From the NCBI GenBank assembly GCA_013288555.1, contig JABDBQ010000005.1, forward strand, positions 41,799 through 105,798: DNA of 64,000 nt, in the 5' to 3' direction. The stretch is from Bacteroidota bacterium (GTDB lineage Bacteria > Bacteroidota > Bacteroidia > CAILMK01). The position numbers and the translations under genes were made by a program. A model generated the notes under the pieces. That model worked only from the letters and a program-made list of their open reading frames with translations. It searched no databases and was not told where the DNA came from. How positions within the stretch are numbered: position 1 is the first letter of the stretch; each line of letters begins with the position of its first letter. Positions 2,888 to 63,744 of this stretch are shown here, in pieces.

Positions 2888-3866
2888 ATTTCAGGTTTAT
2901 ATCGTAGGCACATTTAAAATGACCTTTAGGACAAGCCTTATATCCATGCAATCCGCAAGGCCTGCATTCGAGGTTATCTGTTTCCTGTGCTATTCTGCTA
3001 TCAATAGATAACGGACCAAATCCAAATTCCGGTATTGTGGAGCAGAATATAGCCGTGACAGGGGCATCCATGGCTGATGCAAAATGAAGCGGGGCAGAAT
3101 CATTCGTAAAATTCATCCTGGCATTTTTCATAAGTGCGGCAGTTTGAAGGAAGCTTAGTTTACCAGCAAGAACTTCAATACCGGCATGTCTGCCGTTTTT
3201 TTTGATCTTACTGCAAAGTTCTGAATCACCTTTTCCTCCGGTAAGATAAATCATGTATCCATCCGGGATGGTTTTGATCAGTTCAATCCATTTATATTTT
3301 GGATATTGCTTTGTAAACCAAACAGATGCAGGAGAAATAGTGACATATGGCTTATTTTGATAAACAGAAACAGCTTCAAAATCCGGGTCTGATGGGTAGA
3401 GTTTTGGTTTTGAAGCATGAGCATCTGTGAATTCTGCAATCAATGCCTGGTTCCGCTCTGTTTCATGTAAGTATGCCAAATCCCCTCTTTTACCAATAAT
3501 ATGGGGGAATGATTTTGTAAATAAAAATGAAAATGGATTTTTTTCAAAACCATATCTGAGTTTGGCTCCTGAAAAAGATGCCAGTATTCCCGAAGCTGCA
3601 AATCTTTGAAGGTTGATAACCAAATCATATTTTTCCTTTTTGATTTGCCGGAATATAAACCACAGATTAGCATATTTTTTTTGCTTTTTATCCCAAACGA
3701 GTATCGTCCTTATAAATGGATGGCCCGCAAGTAATGTTTCATTCCCTTTCCTGAGAAGGAAATCAATTTGGGAATACGGATAAAAACTGTTAAGTTTTTC
3801 AACGAGTCCGGTTGCAAGTACTACATCACCGATAAAGGCAGTTTGTATGATCAGGATTTTTTTCAA
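2880..3866 (-). CDS. Glycosyltransferase family 9 (ADP-heptose:LPS heptosyltransferase-like)
   Basis: MKKILIIQTAFIGDVVLATGLVEKLN N-terminus; FTNDSAPLHFASAMDAPVTAIFCSTIPEFGFGP. Confidence 0.85.
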   Translation of the reverse strand: MKKILIIQTAFIGDVVLATGLVEKLNSFYPYSQIDFLLRKGNETLLAGHPFIRTILVWDKKQKKYANLWFIFRQIKKEKYDLVINLQRFAASGILASFSGAKLRYGFEKNPFSFLFTKSFPHIIGKRGDLAYLHETERNQALIAEFTDAHASKPKLYPSDPDFEAVSVYQNKPYVTISPASVWFTKQYPKYKWIELIKTIPDGYMIYLTGGKGDSELCSKIKKNGRHAGIEVLAGKLSFLQTAALMKNARMNFTNDSAPLHFASAMDAPVTAIFCSTIPEFGFGPLSIDSRIAQETDNLECRPCGLHGYKACPKGHFKCAYDINLKFD

Positions 3867-3919
3867 GGTATCAACCTGAATTTTGAAAAATAATATGCAG
3901 GTTTTACTGCACTGATAAT

Positions 3920-4729
3920 TTATATGGAGATATTAAACTCTCTTAATGCATCATTCAATGACGTTTTTAAATCAGTTGATGCTTTTCTTTGTCCGATAAT
4001 CAAGGCACATGAGACACCGAATGACCCTGCCGGATATGTTTTTTGATATGTACCGGGAATAACAACTGATCTTTCAGGAACAAAACCTTTTCTTTCATGA
4101 GGTGTTTCACCCGTTACGTCAATAATTTTGGTAGATGCTGTAAGTACAACATTTGCGCCCAGAACTGCTTCTTTGCCAACACGCACACCTTCAACAACGA
4201 TGCACCTCGAGCCAATAAATGCCCCATCTTCTATAATAACCGGCGCTGCTTGAACAGGTTCTAAAACTCCACCAAGTCCTACACCGCCGCTAAGATGAAC
4301 ATTCTTCCCAACCTGGGCGCATGACCCAACGGTAGCCCAGGTGTCTACCAATGTGCCTTCATCAACATAAGCTCCGATATTCACATAGGATGGCATTAGA
4401 ATAACGCCTCTTGAAATATAAGATCCGTAACGAGCAATACCATGAGGAACAACCCGAACACCCAGGGATTCGAAATCTTTTTTCAACGGAATCTTGTCAT
4501 AAAATTCCATGGGACCGGCATGAAATGTTTCCATTTTCCGGATTCCGAAATACATCAAAACGGCTTTTTTTACCCATTCATTTACCGTCCATCCGAATTC
4601 ATTTTCCTGTGCTACACGAATTTTGCCTTTGTCAAGCGCTTCGATAACTTCGGCAACGGCATCCTGGTTTGCCTGTTCTTTCAAAAGATCCCTGTTGTCC
4701 CAGATGGATTCTATAAGTTGTTGATTCAT
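3920..4729 (-). CDS. dapD: 2,3,4,5-tetrahydropyridine-2,6-dicarboxylate N-succinyltransferase
   Basis: Left-handed beta-helix hexapeptides; MPSYVNIGAYVDEGTLVDTWATVGSCAQVGKNVHLSGGVGLGGVLEPVQA is DapD-specific. Confidence 0.95.
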   Translation of the reverse strand: MNQQLIESIWDNRDLLKEQANQDAVAEVIEALDKGKIRVAQENEFGWTVNEWVKKAVLMYFGIRKMETFHAGPMEFYDKIPLKKDFESLGVRVVPHGIARYGSYISRGVILMPSYVNIGAYVDEGTLVDTWATVGSCAQVGKNVHLSGGVGLGGVLEPVQAAPVIIEDGAFIGSRCIVVEGVRVGKEAVLGANVVLTASTKIIDVTGETPHERKGFVPERSVVIPGTYQKTYPAGSFGVSCALIIGQRKASTDLKTSLNDALREFNISI

Positions 4730-4781
4730 TTATTAAAACTGAATTTAGGTGATGTATTGAATGTTAAATAAGGCCGCAAAG

Positions 4782-7481
4782 TTACTCACTAAGCCTGTAA
4801 TGATAAAGCTTTTTATCAGGTCCACCGATAATCAGGTCAGCATCACCGTTTCCGGACAGATCTCCGACTATAAAATCAGTATTCCCGGTGACAGGGAAAT
4901 TTGGAAATGAATTACCAAATGCAGTGAACAGATACACTTTAGCCGAAGCAACGCTTACATAGCCGATATATTTTTTGCTATTAAAATCGATAATGTGCGG
5001 CGGATATTTTATGTTGTCAGACGTGATCAGTTTCCATAATTCGGTTGAATCGGGACCAAATCCTGAAATCATTTTTTCAGAAGACAGGACAAGTTCCGGT
5101 TTAGCATTATCGTCTTTTTCAATATAATTAAAGAAGGGGCTTTTCCTGAAATTGGGATATGTTTTCTTTTTAACATTACCCGTAAAAGAGACTTCAAATC
5201 CGTTTCCAGTCGAATCCGCAGAAAAAAGAGCCTTGGAATCTAAAGATACCATGAATGAATTTTTGAATCCGGCATGTAATGGTACCGGATTCATAACCTG
5301 TTTGCCATTAATATCCCACAAATAAACAGTTCCTTTTTCAGAGTTGCCAAAAAGATAATGTTTCCCATTGTAAGTAAAATCCTTGATCGGCTTTGTCATG
5401 CCCGCATCGATGTTTTTCGGTACCCATCCGGCAAGCGGTTTCCCGTTTCCATTATACCCATAAATTTTCCCCCTGTTGCAGCATACAAAATATGTATATT
5501 CTTTATTATTATCCACATCAAAAAGGGATAAACCGGTATGTGTTGGCTCCGCGAGGTTTAAAGGATAACTGCCTGCATCTTTACCGTAATGATCCAGTAG
5601 ATAAAGTTTATTGGTAGTGGCAAAAAGATATTCCGATTGTTCATTCTGGAACAGGTCCATTGCATAAATATCTCCCTGTATAGGTTCCTCCAGGTGCTTT
5701 TCCCAAATTATGCTTCCGGAGCTTCCAATGAGGTATAAATTATTTAAAGAATCCTGTACCATAACTTCATGAGTTCCCGATTCATAATTCATTACAATGC
5801 TGGGCTTCCCACGCAGGCTGGCATCAAGGGTTGCAGTCCAAACTGATTCTACATTTCCCTCTTTATCAGAAGGTTTTGAAAGGGTAATCTGGCTGTAAAA
5901 ATTTTTTCCGTTGGCTGCCAGTTGAAATGCAAAACCATTAAATCCCCTATAGGTAGAAAGGTTTGCCTTATATTTAGTAAGGTATTCTGTTTTAAAATAG
6001 GAGGCTCCAAAGTCTGCAACTCTTGTAGGGTTGCAATACATGAAAAAGCTGGTCTCGCTTATTAATGATTTCGAAAATGATTTGTATGAAGATGATTTTT
6101 TCAATGTCTTGTCATCTTTGTAAGCATCAATACATTTTTGTATAGCGCTCAGATTGCTGGCAAAAATGAGAAAGTCGCCGACTTTGGTAAAATAGGGCGA
6201 TTGAAAACCTGCAAAAAGGTCCCCAAAGAGCAATTCGAATGATTTACTCACCCTTATCTGATTCAGTTGATACCCATTATATTCAATTGCAGTAAAATTC
6301 CTGTTTTTATCCGTGGCGAGTTTCTTAAGGTTATCATATGCTTTTGCACTGTCGGATGCTTTAAATACGAGCAATTCCTCAGGTTTTGCACCTTCCGCTG
6401 ATTCGAGCATTGCATAACCCCATTCTTTACCTATTGCCGGAAGGATATCTTTTACAGGATTAATACCAGTGCTTATATCTGTTTCCCTCATTTCAATGTC
6501 CCAGGCATTTGTTTTGCCTTTCTCATTTATATAATTTTTGTGATTTGAAAAGGAAGCATTAAAACTATCGGCACACCAATCCAGAAACATAGATGTTCCG
6601 GAAGGTAATATTCCTGCAATATCAGCTTTTTTTGACGCCTGGTTCTGAAGGCCTGAGAGGAAAGAAGTTTTGCCGGGACCGGCATCCAATGTTCCATTTA
6701 ACCTGAAAAGGCCTGGCTCAGCCTTCAGGGTGTAATCCGCAAAAGAAGCAAAATCAGCAAGGGAAGATATTTTATCACGGATACTTTCAGAAGCGTATAC
6801 ATTTAAGAATTGCGGCAGTCTTGCATAATTGACAAATAGTTTTTGTTGACCAAATGAAGCCGTCATTTCCTTAATCATGTCGCGTGACTTTGATTTACTT
6901 GAATGATACGCGCTTATGGCTTCTTCAACCAATCCGGTATTCCGACTCAGTGCAATGATCCCATCCATAAAAGCAACAGCAAATAATGGTTGCTTTTTGC
7001 TGTTCAGAATTTCGGTTACAGTTACATTATCAAAATTATGATCAAGTACCCTTTCTTCCGGATCAAATGTTTTAACAAGTTTTTCTATATCATACGTATT
7101 AAATTCATTTTGAGACTGGAGTAAAATGAGCAACTGAAAATTATCGGCACTAGTAACATGCAGGCTTACAATAACAGGATTTTGAGATAACGATTTCACA
7201 ATGCCATTATTTGTTTTTAGGACTGAATCGAAAAATCTGAAATCATCTTCAAAAGCCGAAACTGAAGGGTTTTTTTCCAGGAATTTATAGATATCTTTCG
7301 TTTTCAGGTCCTCGAATTCCTTCTCAGGATTTTGCCCCTGGTATGCAAAAACAGAAGATTCCGGCAGGGCAAGACAAGCTTTTGGGAATTGCTGATTTTG
7401 GCGGCTAAAATACAGGTATGCGCCCGCCCCTGCGATGACGATGAATAAGACGATCAACAATACACGTTGAGAAACTTTCAT
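4782..7481 (-). CDS. Large membrane-anchored protein: N-terminal TM, DUF3352-like region, C-terminal PQQ/beta-propeller-like repeats
   Basis: N-terminal hydrophobic segment VLLIVLFIVIAGAGAYLYF; C-terminal NNLYLIGSSGSIIWEKHL and GDLSGNGDADLIIGGPDKKLYHY propeller-like repeats. Confidence 0.6.
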   Translation of the reverse strand: MKVSQRVLLIVLFIVIAGAGAYLYFSRQNQQFPKACLALPESSVFAYQGQNPEKEFEDLKTKDIYKFLEKNPSVSAFEDDFRFFDSVLKTNNGIVKSLSQNPVIVSLHVTSADNFQLLILLQSQNEFNTYDIEKLVKTFDPEERVLDHNFDNVTVTEILNSKKQPLFAVAFMDGIIALSRNTGLVEEAISAYHSSKSKSRDMIKEMTASFGQQKLFVNYARLPQFLNVYASESIRDKISSLADFASFADYTLKAEPGLFRLNGTLDAGPGKTSFLSGLQNQASKKADIAGILPSGTSMFLDWCADSFNASFSNHKNYINEKGKTNAWDIEMRETDISTGINPVKDILPAIGKEWGYAMLESAEGAKPEELLVFKASDSAKAYDNLKKLATDKNRNFTAIEYNGYQLNQIRVSKSFELLFGDLFAGFQSPYFTKVGDFLIFASNLSAIQKCIDAYKDDKTLKKSSSYKSFSKSLISETSFFMYCNPTRVADFGASYFKTEYLTKYKANLSTYRGFNGFAFQLAANGKNFYSQITLSKPSDKEGNVESVWTATLDASLRGKPSIVMNYESGTHEVMVQDSLNNLYLIGSSGSIIWEKHLEEPIQGDIYAMDLFQNEQSEYLFATTNKLYLLDHYGKDAGSYPLNLAEPTHTGLSLFDVDNNKEYTYFVCCNRGKIYGYNGNGKPLAGWVPKNIDAGMTKPIKDFTYNGKHYLFGNSEKGTVYLWDINGKQVMNPVPLHAGFKNSFMVSLDSKALFSADSTGNGFEVSFTGNVKKKTYPNFRKSPFFNYIEKDDNAKPELVLSSEKMISGFGPDSTELWKLITSDNIKYPPHIIDFNSKKYIGYVSVASAKVYLFTAFGNSFPNFPVTGNTDFIVGDLSGNGDADLIIGGPDKKLYHYRLSE

Positions 7482-42932: not shown

Positions 42933-43592
42933 ATGGCTAATGTCAAAGTAAAAGGCAGCGCAAAGTTGTTTGACAGTAAGATTCTTGATTTCCTTACCCG
43001 TACCAATCCGATTATCATTCTTGGAATGTATATTCCTTTGAGCGCATTTTTGTTATGGTATTTTTACAATTACATCCAACCAAGTGCTGGCATATTGATA
43101 GGTGTTTTCTTCTTTGGATTATTCAGCTGGACTTTTTTTGAGTATATTCTCCACAGGTATGTTTTTCATTTTGTAAACGAAACAAAATGGGCTCAGCGTT
43201 TTCATTACCTGATACATGGCGTGCATCATGAGTATCCGAAAGATAAGCAAAGGCTTGTAATGCCACCGGTACCAAGTATCATTATTGCCGGTTCATTCTT
43301 TTTGTTATTCAGATTGGTTATGGGCAGTTATGGGCTTGTTTTTTTCAGTGGTTTTATTATAGGATACCTATGTTATGCGATGATTCATTATACCATGCAT
43401 GCATTCAGGCCACCAAAAAACAGCCTGAAATTTGCCTGGGAATATCATAATGTCCATCACTTCAAACATCCTGATATGGCATTTGGTGTTTCTTCTCCAC
43501 TTTGGGATGTAATTTTCGGTACTTATCCTCCTATGAAAAAAAAGGATTCAAGTGCCGGTAAAAAGGAGAAAGCACATAAAAATGATCAATAA
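42933..43592 (+). CDS. Fatty acid hydroxylase / sterol desaturase superfamily (copy 1)
   Basis: His-box motifs HRYVFHFV, HYLIHGVHHEYP, HYTMHAF, EYHNVHHFKHPD; multiple TM segments. Confidence 0.9.
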   Translation: MANVKVKGSAKLFDSKILDFLTRTNPIIILGMYIPLSAFLLWYFYNYIQPSAGILIGVFFFGLFSWTFFEYILHRYVFHFVNETKWAQRFHYLIHGVHHEYPKDKQRLVMPPVPSIIIAGSFFLLFRLVMGSYGLVFFSGFIIGYLCYAMIHYTMHAFRPPKNSLKFAWEYHNVHHFKHPDMAFGVSSPLWDVIFGTYPPMKKKDSSAGKKEKAHKNDQ

Positions 43593-43640
43593 AAAGGCTT
43601 TGGTCATTTTTCAATCTTTTAATTTTCAATTATAAATTTC

Positions 43641-44249
43641 ATGTATACAGTAAAAGCAAAAGGCAGGGCCAGATTATTTAAAAGCGAAATACTGGAATCC
43701 GGGACAAAAACCAGTCCTATAGCTATTTTAGCGATATACGTACCCTTGGTGGCTTTTTTAGTATGGTATTTTTATAGCCATGTCCATCCCACTTTTTTAA
43801 CATTAGCCATCATGTTTTTTGCCGGATTATTTACCTGGACATTTTTCGAATATATACTGCACAGATATATTTTCCATTTTGTAAACGAAACAAAGTGGGC
43901 GCAACGTTTTCATTACCTCATCCATGGTGTTCATCATGAATATCCCAAAGACAGGCTCAGACTGGTCATGCCTCCCATGGCAAGCCTGGTTATAGCGGTC
44001 CTTTTCTTTTTTATATTTAATTTTTTACTTGGGAAATTTGTAAGTGTATTCTTTGGTGGTTTTATTACCGGATATATCTGTTACGATATGATACACTATA
44101 CTTTACATGCCTTTCGTGCACCCAAAAACAAACTGAAGTTTGCCTGGGAATATCATAATGTGCATCATTTTAAGCATCATGATAAAGCTTATGGGGTTTC
44201 TTCACCACTTTGGGATATCGTTTTTGGTACCTATCCTAAAAAGGATTAG
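43641..44249 (+). CDS. Fatty acid hydroxylase / sterol desaturase superfamily (copy 2)
   Basis: Same His boxes (HRYIFHFV, HYLIHGVHHEYP, HYTLHAF, EYHNVHHFKHHD); tandem paralogue of the preceding gene. Confidence 0.9.
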   Translation: MYTVKAKGRARLFKSEILESGTKTSPIAILAIYVPLVAFLVWYFYSHVHPTFLTLAIMFFAGLFTWTFFEYILHRYIFHFVNETKWAQRFHYLIHGVHHEYPKDRLRLVMPPMASLVIAVLFFFIFNFLLGKFVSVFFGGFITGYICYDMIHYTLHAFRAPKNKLKFAWEYHNVHHFKHHDKAYGVSSPLWDIVFGTYPKKD

Positions 44250-62240: not shown

Positions 62241-62312
62241 TCAAATCCTCATTTCAGGCACCTCACCTTCAATAATCAATCTTCCAGCTGTTTTGGCTTT
62301 GATTTCAACCAT
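62241..62312 (-). pseudogene. Remnant of a scoB-like 3' end ([23 protein letters not shown])
   Basis: 62249-62306 matches 63096-63153 (scoB 3' end) at 54 of 58 bases; frame and stop preserved; scoB ends [21 protein letters not shown]. Confidence 0.85.
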
Positions 62313-62323
62313 TTTGAAATGTT

Positions 62324-62710
62324 TTACCAAATTACTTTTAAATCATTGTACATTGAGAAAGTATCATCTTTAGAAATGATCGACATTTTACCATTTATGG
62401 CTTGTGCAATCAGCATTCTGTCAAATGGGTCTCTATGATGAAATGGTAATGATGAAACTAAAACATTATCTTCATTTTGAATAGGAAGAATGCTGATTCC
62501 ACTTGAAATAATGTCATTAATATATTCCCGGAAAGGCCTGCTTATATTCAATTTATTTAAGCTGATTTTAACGGCCATTTCCCACAAAGAAACAACACTT
62601 ATATAATTTTCTGAATCGGGATTCTGGATGCAATCAAGTGCTTTTTTAGATAGCTGAGCGTCCTCTTTGAAGTACCAGATGAGTGTATGGGTATCCAAAA
62701 GGTAATCCAT
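62324..62710 (-). CDS. PIN-domain (VapC-type) toxin
   Basis: MDYLLDTHTLIWYFKED, YISVVSLWEMAVKISL, HHRDPFDRMLIAQAI conserved PIN acidic residues. Confidence 0.92.
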   Translation of the reverse strand: MDYLLDTHTLIWYFKEDAQLSKKALDCIQNPDSENYISVVSLWEMAVKISLNKLNISRPFREYINDIISSGISILPIQNEDNVLVSSLPFHHRDPFDRMLIAQAINGKMSIISKDDTFSMYNDLKVIW

Positions 62711-62922
62711 TACCTCATATATTCTTTAAAATCTTCCAGTGGAGCATCAAAATCAGGGCTCATTTCAATTTTGTCTTTCCACAAGCCATAGCCTTTGGTC
62801 TGGCGTTTATTTGTTTGATCCTTATTCGCTTTCGCAAATAAAAAATCAATAAAATCCTCAGCCTCAGCTTTCAGTGCATCTGGTAATCTCGTAAATTTTT
62901 GTATTACAACACTTACGTCCAT
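62710..62922 (-). CDS. DUF2281/VapB-type antitoxin
   Basis: VVIQKFTRLPDALKAEAEDFIDFLFAK...APLEDFKEYM; TAATG overlap with the PIN gene. Start taken as MDVSVV. Confidence 0.85.
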   Translation of the reverse strand: MDVSVVIQKFTRLPDALKAEAEDFIDFLFAKANKDQTNKRQTKGYGLWKDKIEMSPDFDAPLEDFKEYMR

Positions 62923-63007
62923 TATTATCCTGTTTATTGAACAGAACAAATTTAGTTAAATCTTTTGTTCCGAAAAATGTAGTTCTTTTGCCTTGGTCAG
63001 CATTTTC

Positions 63008-63032
63008 AGTTGACTACAACTTGTAGTCAACT
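63008..63032. repeat. 12-bp-arm palindrome AGTTGACTACAA-C-TTGTAGTCAACT
   Basis: Perfect inverted repeat with 1-nt centre, between the scoB stop and the antitoxin start. Confidence 0.9.
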
Positions 63033-63087
63033 AATTTTCAGCTTGCGTAAGCCTATTATCACATCATCACATTAACATATCATCACA

Positions 63088-63744
63088 TTAGATTTTCATC
63101 TCAGGCACATCACCCTCAATAATCAATCTACCAGCTGTTTTGGCTTTGATTTCTTCTATCGATACACCCGGCGCACGTTCCAGGAGTTTGAAACCGCTGT
63201 CAGGTGTTACTTCCAATACAGCCATTTCGGTTACGATCTTTTTCACGCAGCGCACACCTGTTATCGGCAAAGTACATTCAGGCAATAATTTCGATTCACC
63301 TTCTTTGTTAGAATGCATCATGGCTACAATGATATTATCAGATGAAGCAACCAGATCCATAGCGCCCCCCATGCCTTTTACCATTTTGCCGGGTATTTTC
63401 CAGTTGGCAATATCTCCCTTGTCGGATACCTCCATAGCTCCCAAAACAGTGAGTTGAATATGTTTGCCACGTATCATGGCAAAAGAAGTGGCAGAATCAA
63501 ATATAGCAGAACCGGGAAGGGTAGTTACCGTTTCTTTTCCGGCGTTGATCATGTCCGGATCCTGCTCACCCTCAAATGGATAAGGCCCCATTCCGAGCAG
63601 TCCGTTTTCTGATTGCAAGATAACAGTTATTCCCTCTGGAATGTAGTTTGCCACTAATGTGGGAATGCCAATTCCTAAATTTACATAATAACCGTCTTGT
63701 AGCTCTTGTGCGATTCTTTTCGCTATTCCGTATTTATCTAGCAT
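63088..63744 (-). CDS. scoB: 3-oxoacid CoA-transferase subunit B
   Basis: [72 protein letters not shown]. Confidence 0.95.

Follow-up and report, generated by a model that had tools for sequence, protein, structure and literature searches.

Restriction-modification systems have been reported to insert with long and variable target duplications of ~100 bp (Kobayashi and colleagues; PMC3874152). Homology-facilitated illegitimate recombination has been described for competent bacteria and, as a rare event, for E. coli conjugation (PMC3240628), and it has been proposed for the displaced immunity-gene arrays of T6SS (Vibrio cholerae) and for Rhs tips (PMC5361080). For small toxin-antitoxin (TA) modules, which have no transposase of their own, it has long been asked how they move from one chromosome to another. 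While comparable scars are already known for restriction-modification and T6SS/Rhs modules, we found no report of TA modules inserted with a displaced gene end in the literature searched, the coverage of which was partial, so that an earlier mention is possible.

The window analysed here, a 64 kb stretch of a Bacteroidota contig, encodes such a module on its minus strand in the order scoB, DUF2281 antitoxin, PIN toxin and a second scoB end. The intact scoB gene for CoA-transferase subunit B (63088..63744, minus strand) is an ORF of 218 aa with the Pfam domain CoA_trans (PF01144, E 1.5e-45), and its last 22 codons including the stop (63088..63153, minus strand) are the proximal copy of the duplicated end, in direct repeat with 62241-62306. 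The putative antitoxin gene (62710..62949, minus strand; PF10047, E 4.8e-19) lies directly upstream of the PIN-domain (VapC-like) toxin gene (62324..62710, minus strand; PF01850, E 7.8e-14) and has one base in common with its start. The acidic PIN residues D6, E44, D94, D97 and D115, taken as the catalytic set, were conserved in 93–100% of 58 aligned sequences. In gene order, one-base overlap and PIN acidic residues, the pair resembles VapBC-type modules; it is ordinary in itself, and only the insertion scar is unusual. Just the two TA genes lie between the two scoB-end copies, as had been claimed from a first reading, and neither a transposase nor an integrase is encoded there. A 25-bp palindrome, AGTTGACTACAACTTGTAGTCAACT (63008..63032), is present as an inverted repeat between scoB and the antitoxin gene and is a possible operator or terminator. 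Directly after the scoB stop follows a dispersed intergenic repeat, TAATGTGATGATATG... (63042..63089, minus strand), which the genome has in similar form at four further places.

The distal copy (62241..62306, minus strand) is a displaced and diverged scoB 3' end with its own stop. The gap-free match of 54 of 58 bases between 62249-62306 and 63096-63153, on which an earlier note on this DNA was built, was recovered by self-BLAST of the window (E = 1.5e-17) as its sole partial-gene repeat, the other matches being paralogous or internal-repeat genes. Elsewhere in the window (42933-44249), fatty-acid-hydroxylase-like genes form a tandem pair with 77% identity over 417 bp. The coding homology of the scoB ends is longer than the note had stated, with 58 of 66 nt identical between 62241-62306 and 63088-63153 including both stops (TGA and TAA). 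The eight differences over these 66 coding bases change seven codons, five of them synonymously (counting the stop) and two conservatively (D/E and K/R), in agreement with the reported retention of frame and stop; random substitution would be expected to give ~5.4 nonsynonymous changes where two were observed (P = 0.008). An in-frame ATG ahead of the remnant would make it a predicted mini-ORF (62241-62312, minus strand). The candidate junction placed by sequence comparison, from the PIN stop to the start of the remnant homology, measures 17 nt (62307..62323), close to the ~15 bp first given. Among 162 orthologous ends, the two scoB ends of the window were nearest to each other (8 differences), and none of the 162 was decisively closer to either of them.

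We then compared the flanks of homologs of the window PIN toxin, which were found in 43 of 395 genomes (best identity 48%), and of other toxin families. A locus was regarded as bracketed when the left and right flanks of the module shared a direct repeat scoring 40 bits or more. Each family was represented by its best-scoring loci within a single Bacteroidota class, many genomes of which are likely MAGs. For PIN, 12 of 60 loci were bracketed, compared with 2 of 3540 mismatched left/right flank pairs, and inverted repeats of at least 40 bits were found at none of the 60. Brackets were also detected at 9 of 24 loci of ParE-family toxins (0 of 552 mismatched pairs) and 8 of 28 loci of HepT-like toxins (0 of 756). 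Control loci treated alike gave none of 29 for GNAT and none of 28 for glyoxalase, and ordinary ORFs gave 3 of 330, a count that includes the window PIN gene itself and one palindromic repeat twice and that reduces to ~1 of 328. Long direct repeats of the target flank the module in the window (58/66 nt). Over all families, 29 of 112 TA loci were bracketed, compared with ~1 of 385 controls (Fisher 2e-19, or 2e-6 when only the GNAT and glyoxalase families are used as controls), and the bracket was undetectable at about three quarters of the sampled TA modules.

Fourteen PIN loci passed E < 1e-3. The right copy began at a median of 31 nt past the toxin, and at 12 of the 14 loci at 12–71 nt from the toxin stop. 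Regions 1.5–3 kb away from the PIN gene gave repeats in 1 of 55 cases. Pairs of regions on the same side, not split by the PIN gene, gave 5 of 56 on the left and 4 of 59 on the right, which is above background and arises partly from stacked modules and dispersed repeats. Not every bracket is therefore an insertion scar and, because TA neighbourhoods are repeat-rich, single brackets need inspection.

In the 14 PIN cases, the repeated sequences were the 3' end of the adjacent gene (seven), the 5' end of the downstream gene (two) and intergenic DNA (five). The seven 3' ends belonged to scoB, a PMT_2 glycosyltransferase gene, a 317-aa gene, an AraC-type regulator gene, methylmalonyl-CoA mutase twice and purB, to which the ParE and HepT loci added 3' ends of asnS and of an aminotransferase gene, along with the 5' end of a cyclase-like gene. 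Repeat lengths across loci ranged from ~31 to 375 nt. At locus L411 the repeat is exact (100%) and looks locally duplicated. The HepT locus L422 (G151) has a 261-bp direct repeat with 100% identity, the copies lying ~0.6–0.8 kb away to the left and right; it may stem from a very recent duplication or be a dispersed repeat. One genome (G018) showed a gene followed by a PIN pair, a remnant, a TumE-toxin pair and a second remnant.

A target with and without insertion was found at asnS. In the genus of G136, four genomes (G069, G195, G221 and G026) have asnS followed directly by rpoN (sigma-54) with no insert, while G166 has an MNT/HepT pair and one asnS remnant between the two genes, and G136 has two stacked modules there, first a HEPN/MNT pair and then a ParE pair, each followed by a remnant. 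The comparison with empty sites that had been proposed for the window locus was thus successful at asnS-rpoN in one genus (four empty, two occupied), where related genomes carry the empty target with one copy, but not at scoB, for which no syntenic close relative with an empty site was found and single-ended scoB was seen in non-syntenic relatives. For the aminotransferase locus of G119, none of the congeners had a close ortholog that could represent an empty site. In G136, the first asnS remnant has MTNV as in G026, G166 and G221, and the intact gene has MQNV as in G069 and G195, which hints that one of the two ends may be of foreign origin.

The differences between copies were evaluated at the codon level. 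Pooled over 12 coding repeat pairs, 95 synonymous and 49 nonsynonymous codon changes were counted, where random substitution predicts 120 nonsynonymous changes. Under local duplication, with the intact copy under selection and the remnant free, ~60% of changes should be nonsynonymous by our own estimate, and the pooled changes departed from this null with P = 3e-10. Synonymous to nonsynonymous counts were 10:0 for asnS, 14:2 for MCM and 13:2 for scoB of G016, while neutral divergence was not rejected by the 317-aa gene of G166, the aminotransferase of G119 and the 5' end of G229. Given that the differences are mostly synonymous, remnant and intact end appear to have diverged while both were coding, in separate lineages; on these codon counts, most copies probably diverged as coding sequence and were joined later. 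The pooled 95:49 is thus not that of two copies duplicated from one target molecule, with some single pairs undecided, and this synonymous divergence backs the original reading of the window remnant as the end of a diverged homologous gene and not a recent local copy. Comparisons with orthologs and congeners gave no decisive signal of which copy was native and which imported for scoB of the window, G016 or G136.

The C-terminal 69 residues of scoB were searched in the 395 genomes of the class, of which 314 had a match and twelve had two, and the eleven double-match genomes besides the window were followed up. A displaced end, i.e. a partial second end ~0.8–2 kb downstream on the same strand, was found in 3 of the 314 (window, G016 and G363), with a different break position and a different cargo in each. 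The cargoes were PIN/DUF2281 in the window, HipBA in G016 (HipB, Couple_hipA and HipA_C genes by Pfam) and a GT2 gene with a DUF2304 gene in G363, and the three cases are independent. The second end in G016 matched over 140 nt at 89% identity, where 13 changes were synonymous and 2 nonsynonymous, and its two copies were sister to each other among congeners without a direction signal, while the G363 remnant is old (73% over 79 nt). Second matches at contig edges (G171, G309 and G312), scoB copies on separate contigs (G100 and G121) and other CoA-transferases (G094, G226, G347 and G369) were set aside as not being displaced ends. In three of these genomes, contig breaks fall at the 3' end of scoB or within the gene (G309:C91/C101, G171:C172/C154 and G312:C31/C269), which could be caused by strain-variable insertions. 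In another genome, scoB contains an in-frame TAG stop (G050:C1:474580-475209).

No second scoB end was found in the stored flanks of 80 named-genome loci and 29 further relatives' loci. By inspection, TA pairs were located directly behind scoB at ~5 of ~150 loci, and Pfam confirmed those of the window, G016 and G062. Two congeners of G016 have a DUF6922 gene and an AbiEii nucleotidyltransferase toxin gene directly after scoB (L189 in G062, 3804-4699, by Pfam; L190 in G130), and a scoB remnant was undetectable behind the AbiEii-like pair in both. Judged by eye, L194 (G260, 4445-5126) has a HigBA/RelE-like pair immediately behind scoB but in the opposite orientation, a Vsr-like very-short-patch repair endonuclease gene adjoins scoB in L096 (Croceivirga radicis, 5993-6466), and a GNAT-like acetyltransferase gene is inserted between scoA and scoB in L118 (5858-6505) of a same-family genome (G001). 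The defined TA insertion site downstream of scoB that the earlier note had suspected was not supported. A displaced end was seen in only 3 of 314 scoB genes, one cargo of the three is no TA pair and the break point shifts, so scoB is one target among others, and we rejected a dedicated scoB hotspot as the main story, also in view of the ~5 TA pairs in ~150 loci. Because the host gene differs between genomes, the regularity belongs to the TA module and not to scoB.

The broader claim of the note, that recombination into the 3' end of a gene produced the insertion and left behind one intact end and a diverged remnant, gained support: two unrelated genomes show the structure again at scoB, it is present at many other genes, and empty sites exist at asnS-rpoN. 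We consider it probable that the module was inserted by recombinase-free, one-sided and homology-anchored recombination, in which it was imported with a gene end and the resident end was displaced. Given that the window insert is the module only, we infer recombination by the host, and likewise a donor, a route and a native copy as follows. The donor DNA would come from a related lineage in which the TA module was linked to the donor's own version of the scoB end. The incoming DNA would pair with the resident gene through the homologous gene end, and the other side would be joined close behind the toxin stop, possibly by homology-facilitated illegitimate recombination of linear DNA or, alternatively, by integration of a circle through a single crossover. 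The former route would leave one homologous side and one non-homologous junction; the toxin-side junction falls 12–71 nt past the stop in 12 of 14 PIN loci. The host gene would remain full-length with a second, diverged end on the far side of the module, and repeated events would stack modules, each followed by another gene-end remnant. The brackets at about a quarter of the sampled TA modules suggest that such modules spread without a transposase by recombining into ordinary gene ends. More tentatively, TA modules in Bacteroidia may be recombinase-free cassettes that travel with core-gene ends and home to them, where the carried gene-end piece would serve as the attachment site for host homologous recombination, keeping the host gene full-length and allowing stacking.

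A transposition-like insertion that duplicates 37–400 bp of the target, the copies then diverging in place, would account for the same geometry, which is known from restriction-modification systems with variable duplications of ~100 bp (PMC3874152), and for the pairs with 96–100% identity (L256, L411 and L422). Nevertheless, the strongly synonymous divergence of most coding pairs is unexpected of a dead remnant and the window insert consists of two TA genes without a transposase, so we regard this explanation as rather unlikely, though it is the strongest of the rivals. The codon pattern could be reconciled with the known geometry if, after local duplication, the intact gene end were replaced by a relative's allele. 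Core genes are commonly exchanged by homologous recombination, but a second event would be needed at most loci, reaching the gene end every time, which makes this sequence of events improbable.

Site-specific integration by a tyrosine recombinase using gene 3' ends as attachment sites would produce a regenerated end, a remnant and stacking, as in integration into tRNA or gene 3' ends. It is, however, very improbable here: the two-gene window insert contains no integrase, host genes and break points vary with no fixed crossover core (the scoB copies start at three positions), the repeats range from ~31 to 375 nt and 5' ends are duplicated too. An integron cassette was not supported, since the insert has no integrase and the repeats are host-gene ends differing by locus instead of a common site. 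We give least credence to a history in which scoB or scoAB was first duplicated in tandem, with deletion and TA insertion coming afterwards. This would leave a diverged partial second copy, but no tandem scoB on one contig was seen among the 314 genomes with scoB, and many genes show the same structure, asnS with its empty sites among them.

One-sided, homology-anchored insertion, the reading we favour, would have practical consequences. A scar in the form of a diverged neighbour-gene end on about a quarter of the sampled TA modules would allow insertion history, donors and transfer direction to be tested from sequence alone. Displaced gene ends could also help to find unknown TA or defence modules, as with the GT2/DUF2304 and HipBA genes behind scoB. 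In comparison with known systems, the long target duplications of restriction-modification systems are alike in that a selfish addiction module forms a unit without a transposase between long and variable direct repeats. Here, however, it is TA modules that are bracketed, often by ends of neighbouring genes, and most copies show coding-type divergence, which makes it improbable that they arose as identical copies in place. Integrative elements in gene or tRNA 3' ends share the regenerated end, the far-side remnant and stacking, whereas here the window insert has no integrase, no fixed core site is seen, the break point varies and 5' ends are used as well. T6SS effector-immunity arrays and Rhs orphan tips share the one-sided homology anchor, the old 3' end pushed downstream and the formation of arrays by repetition, but their anchor is the effector's own gene or cluster, while here any housekeeping gene next to the module serves as anchor, and what is carried is an intracellular TA pair.
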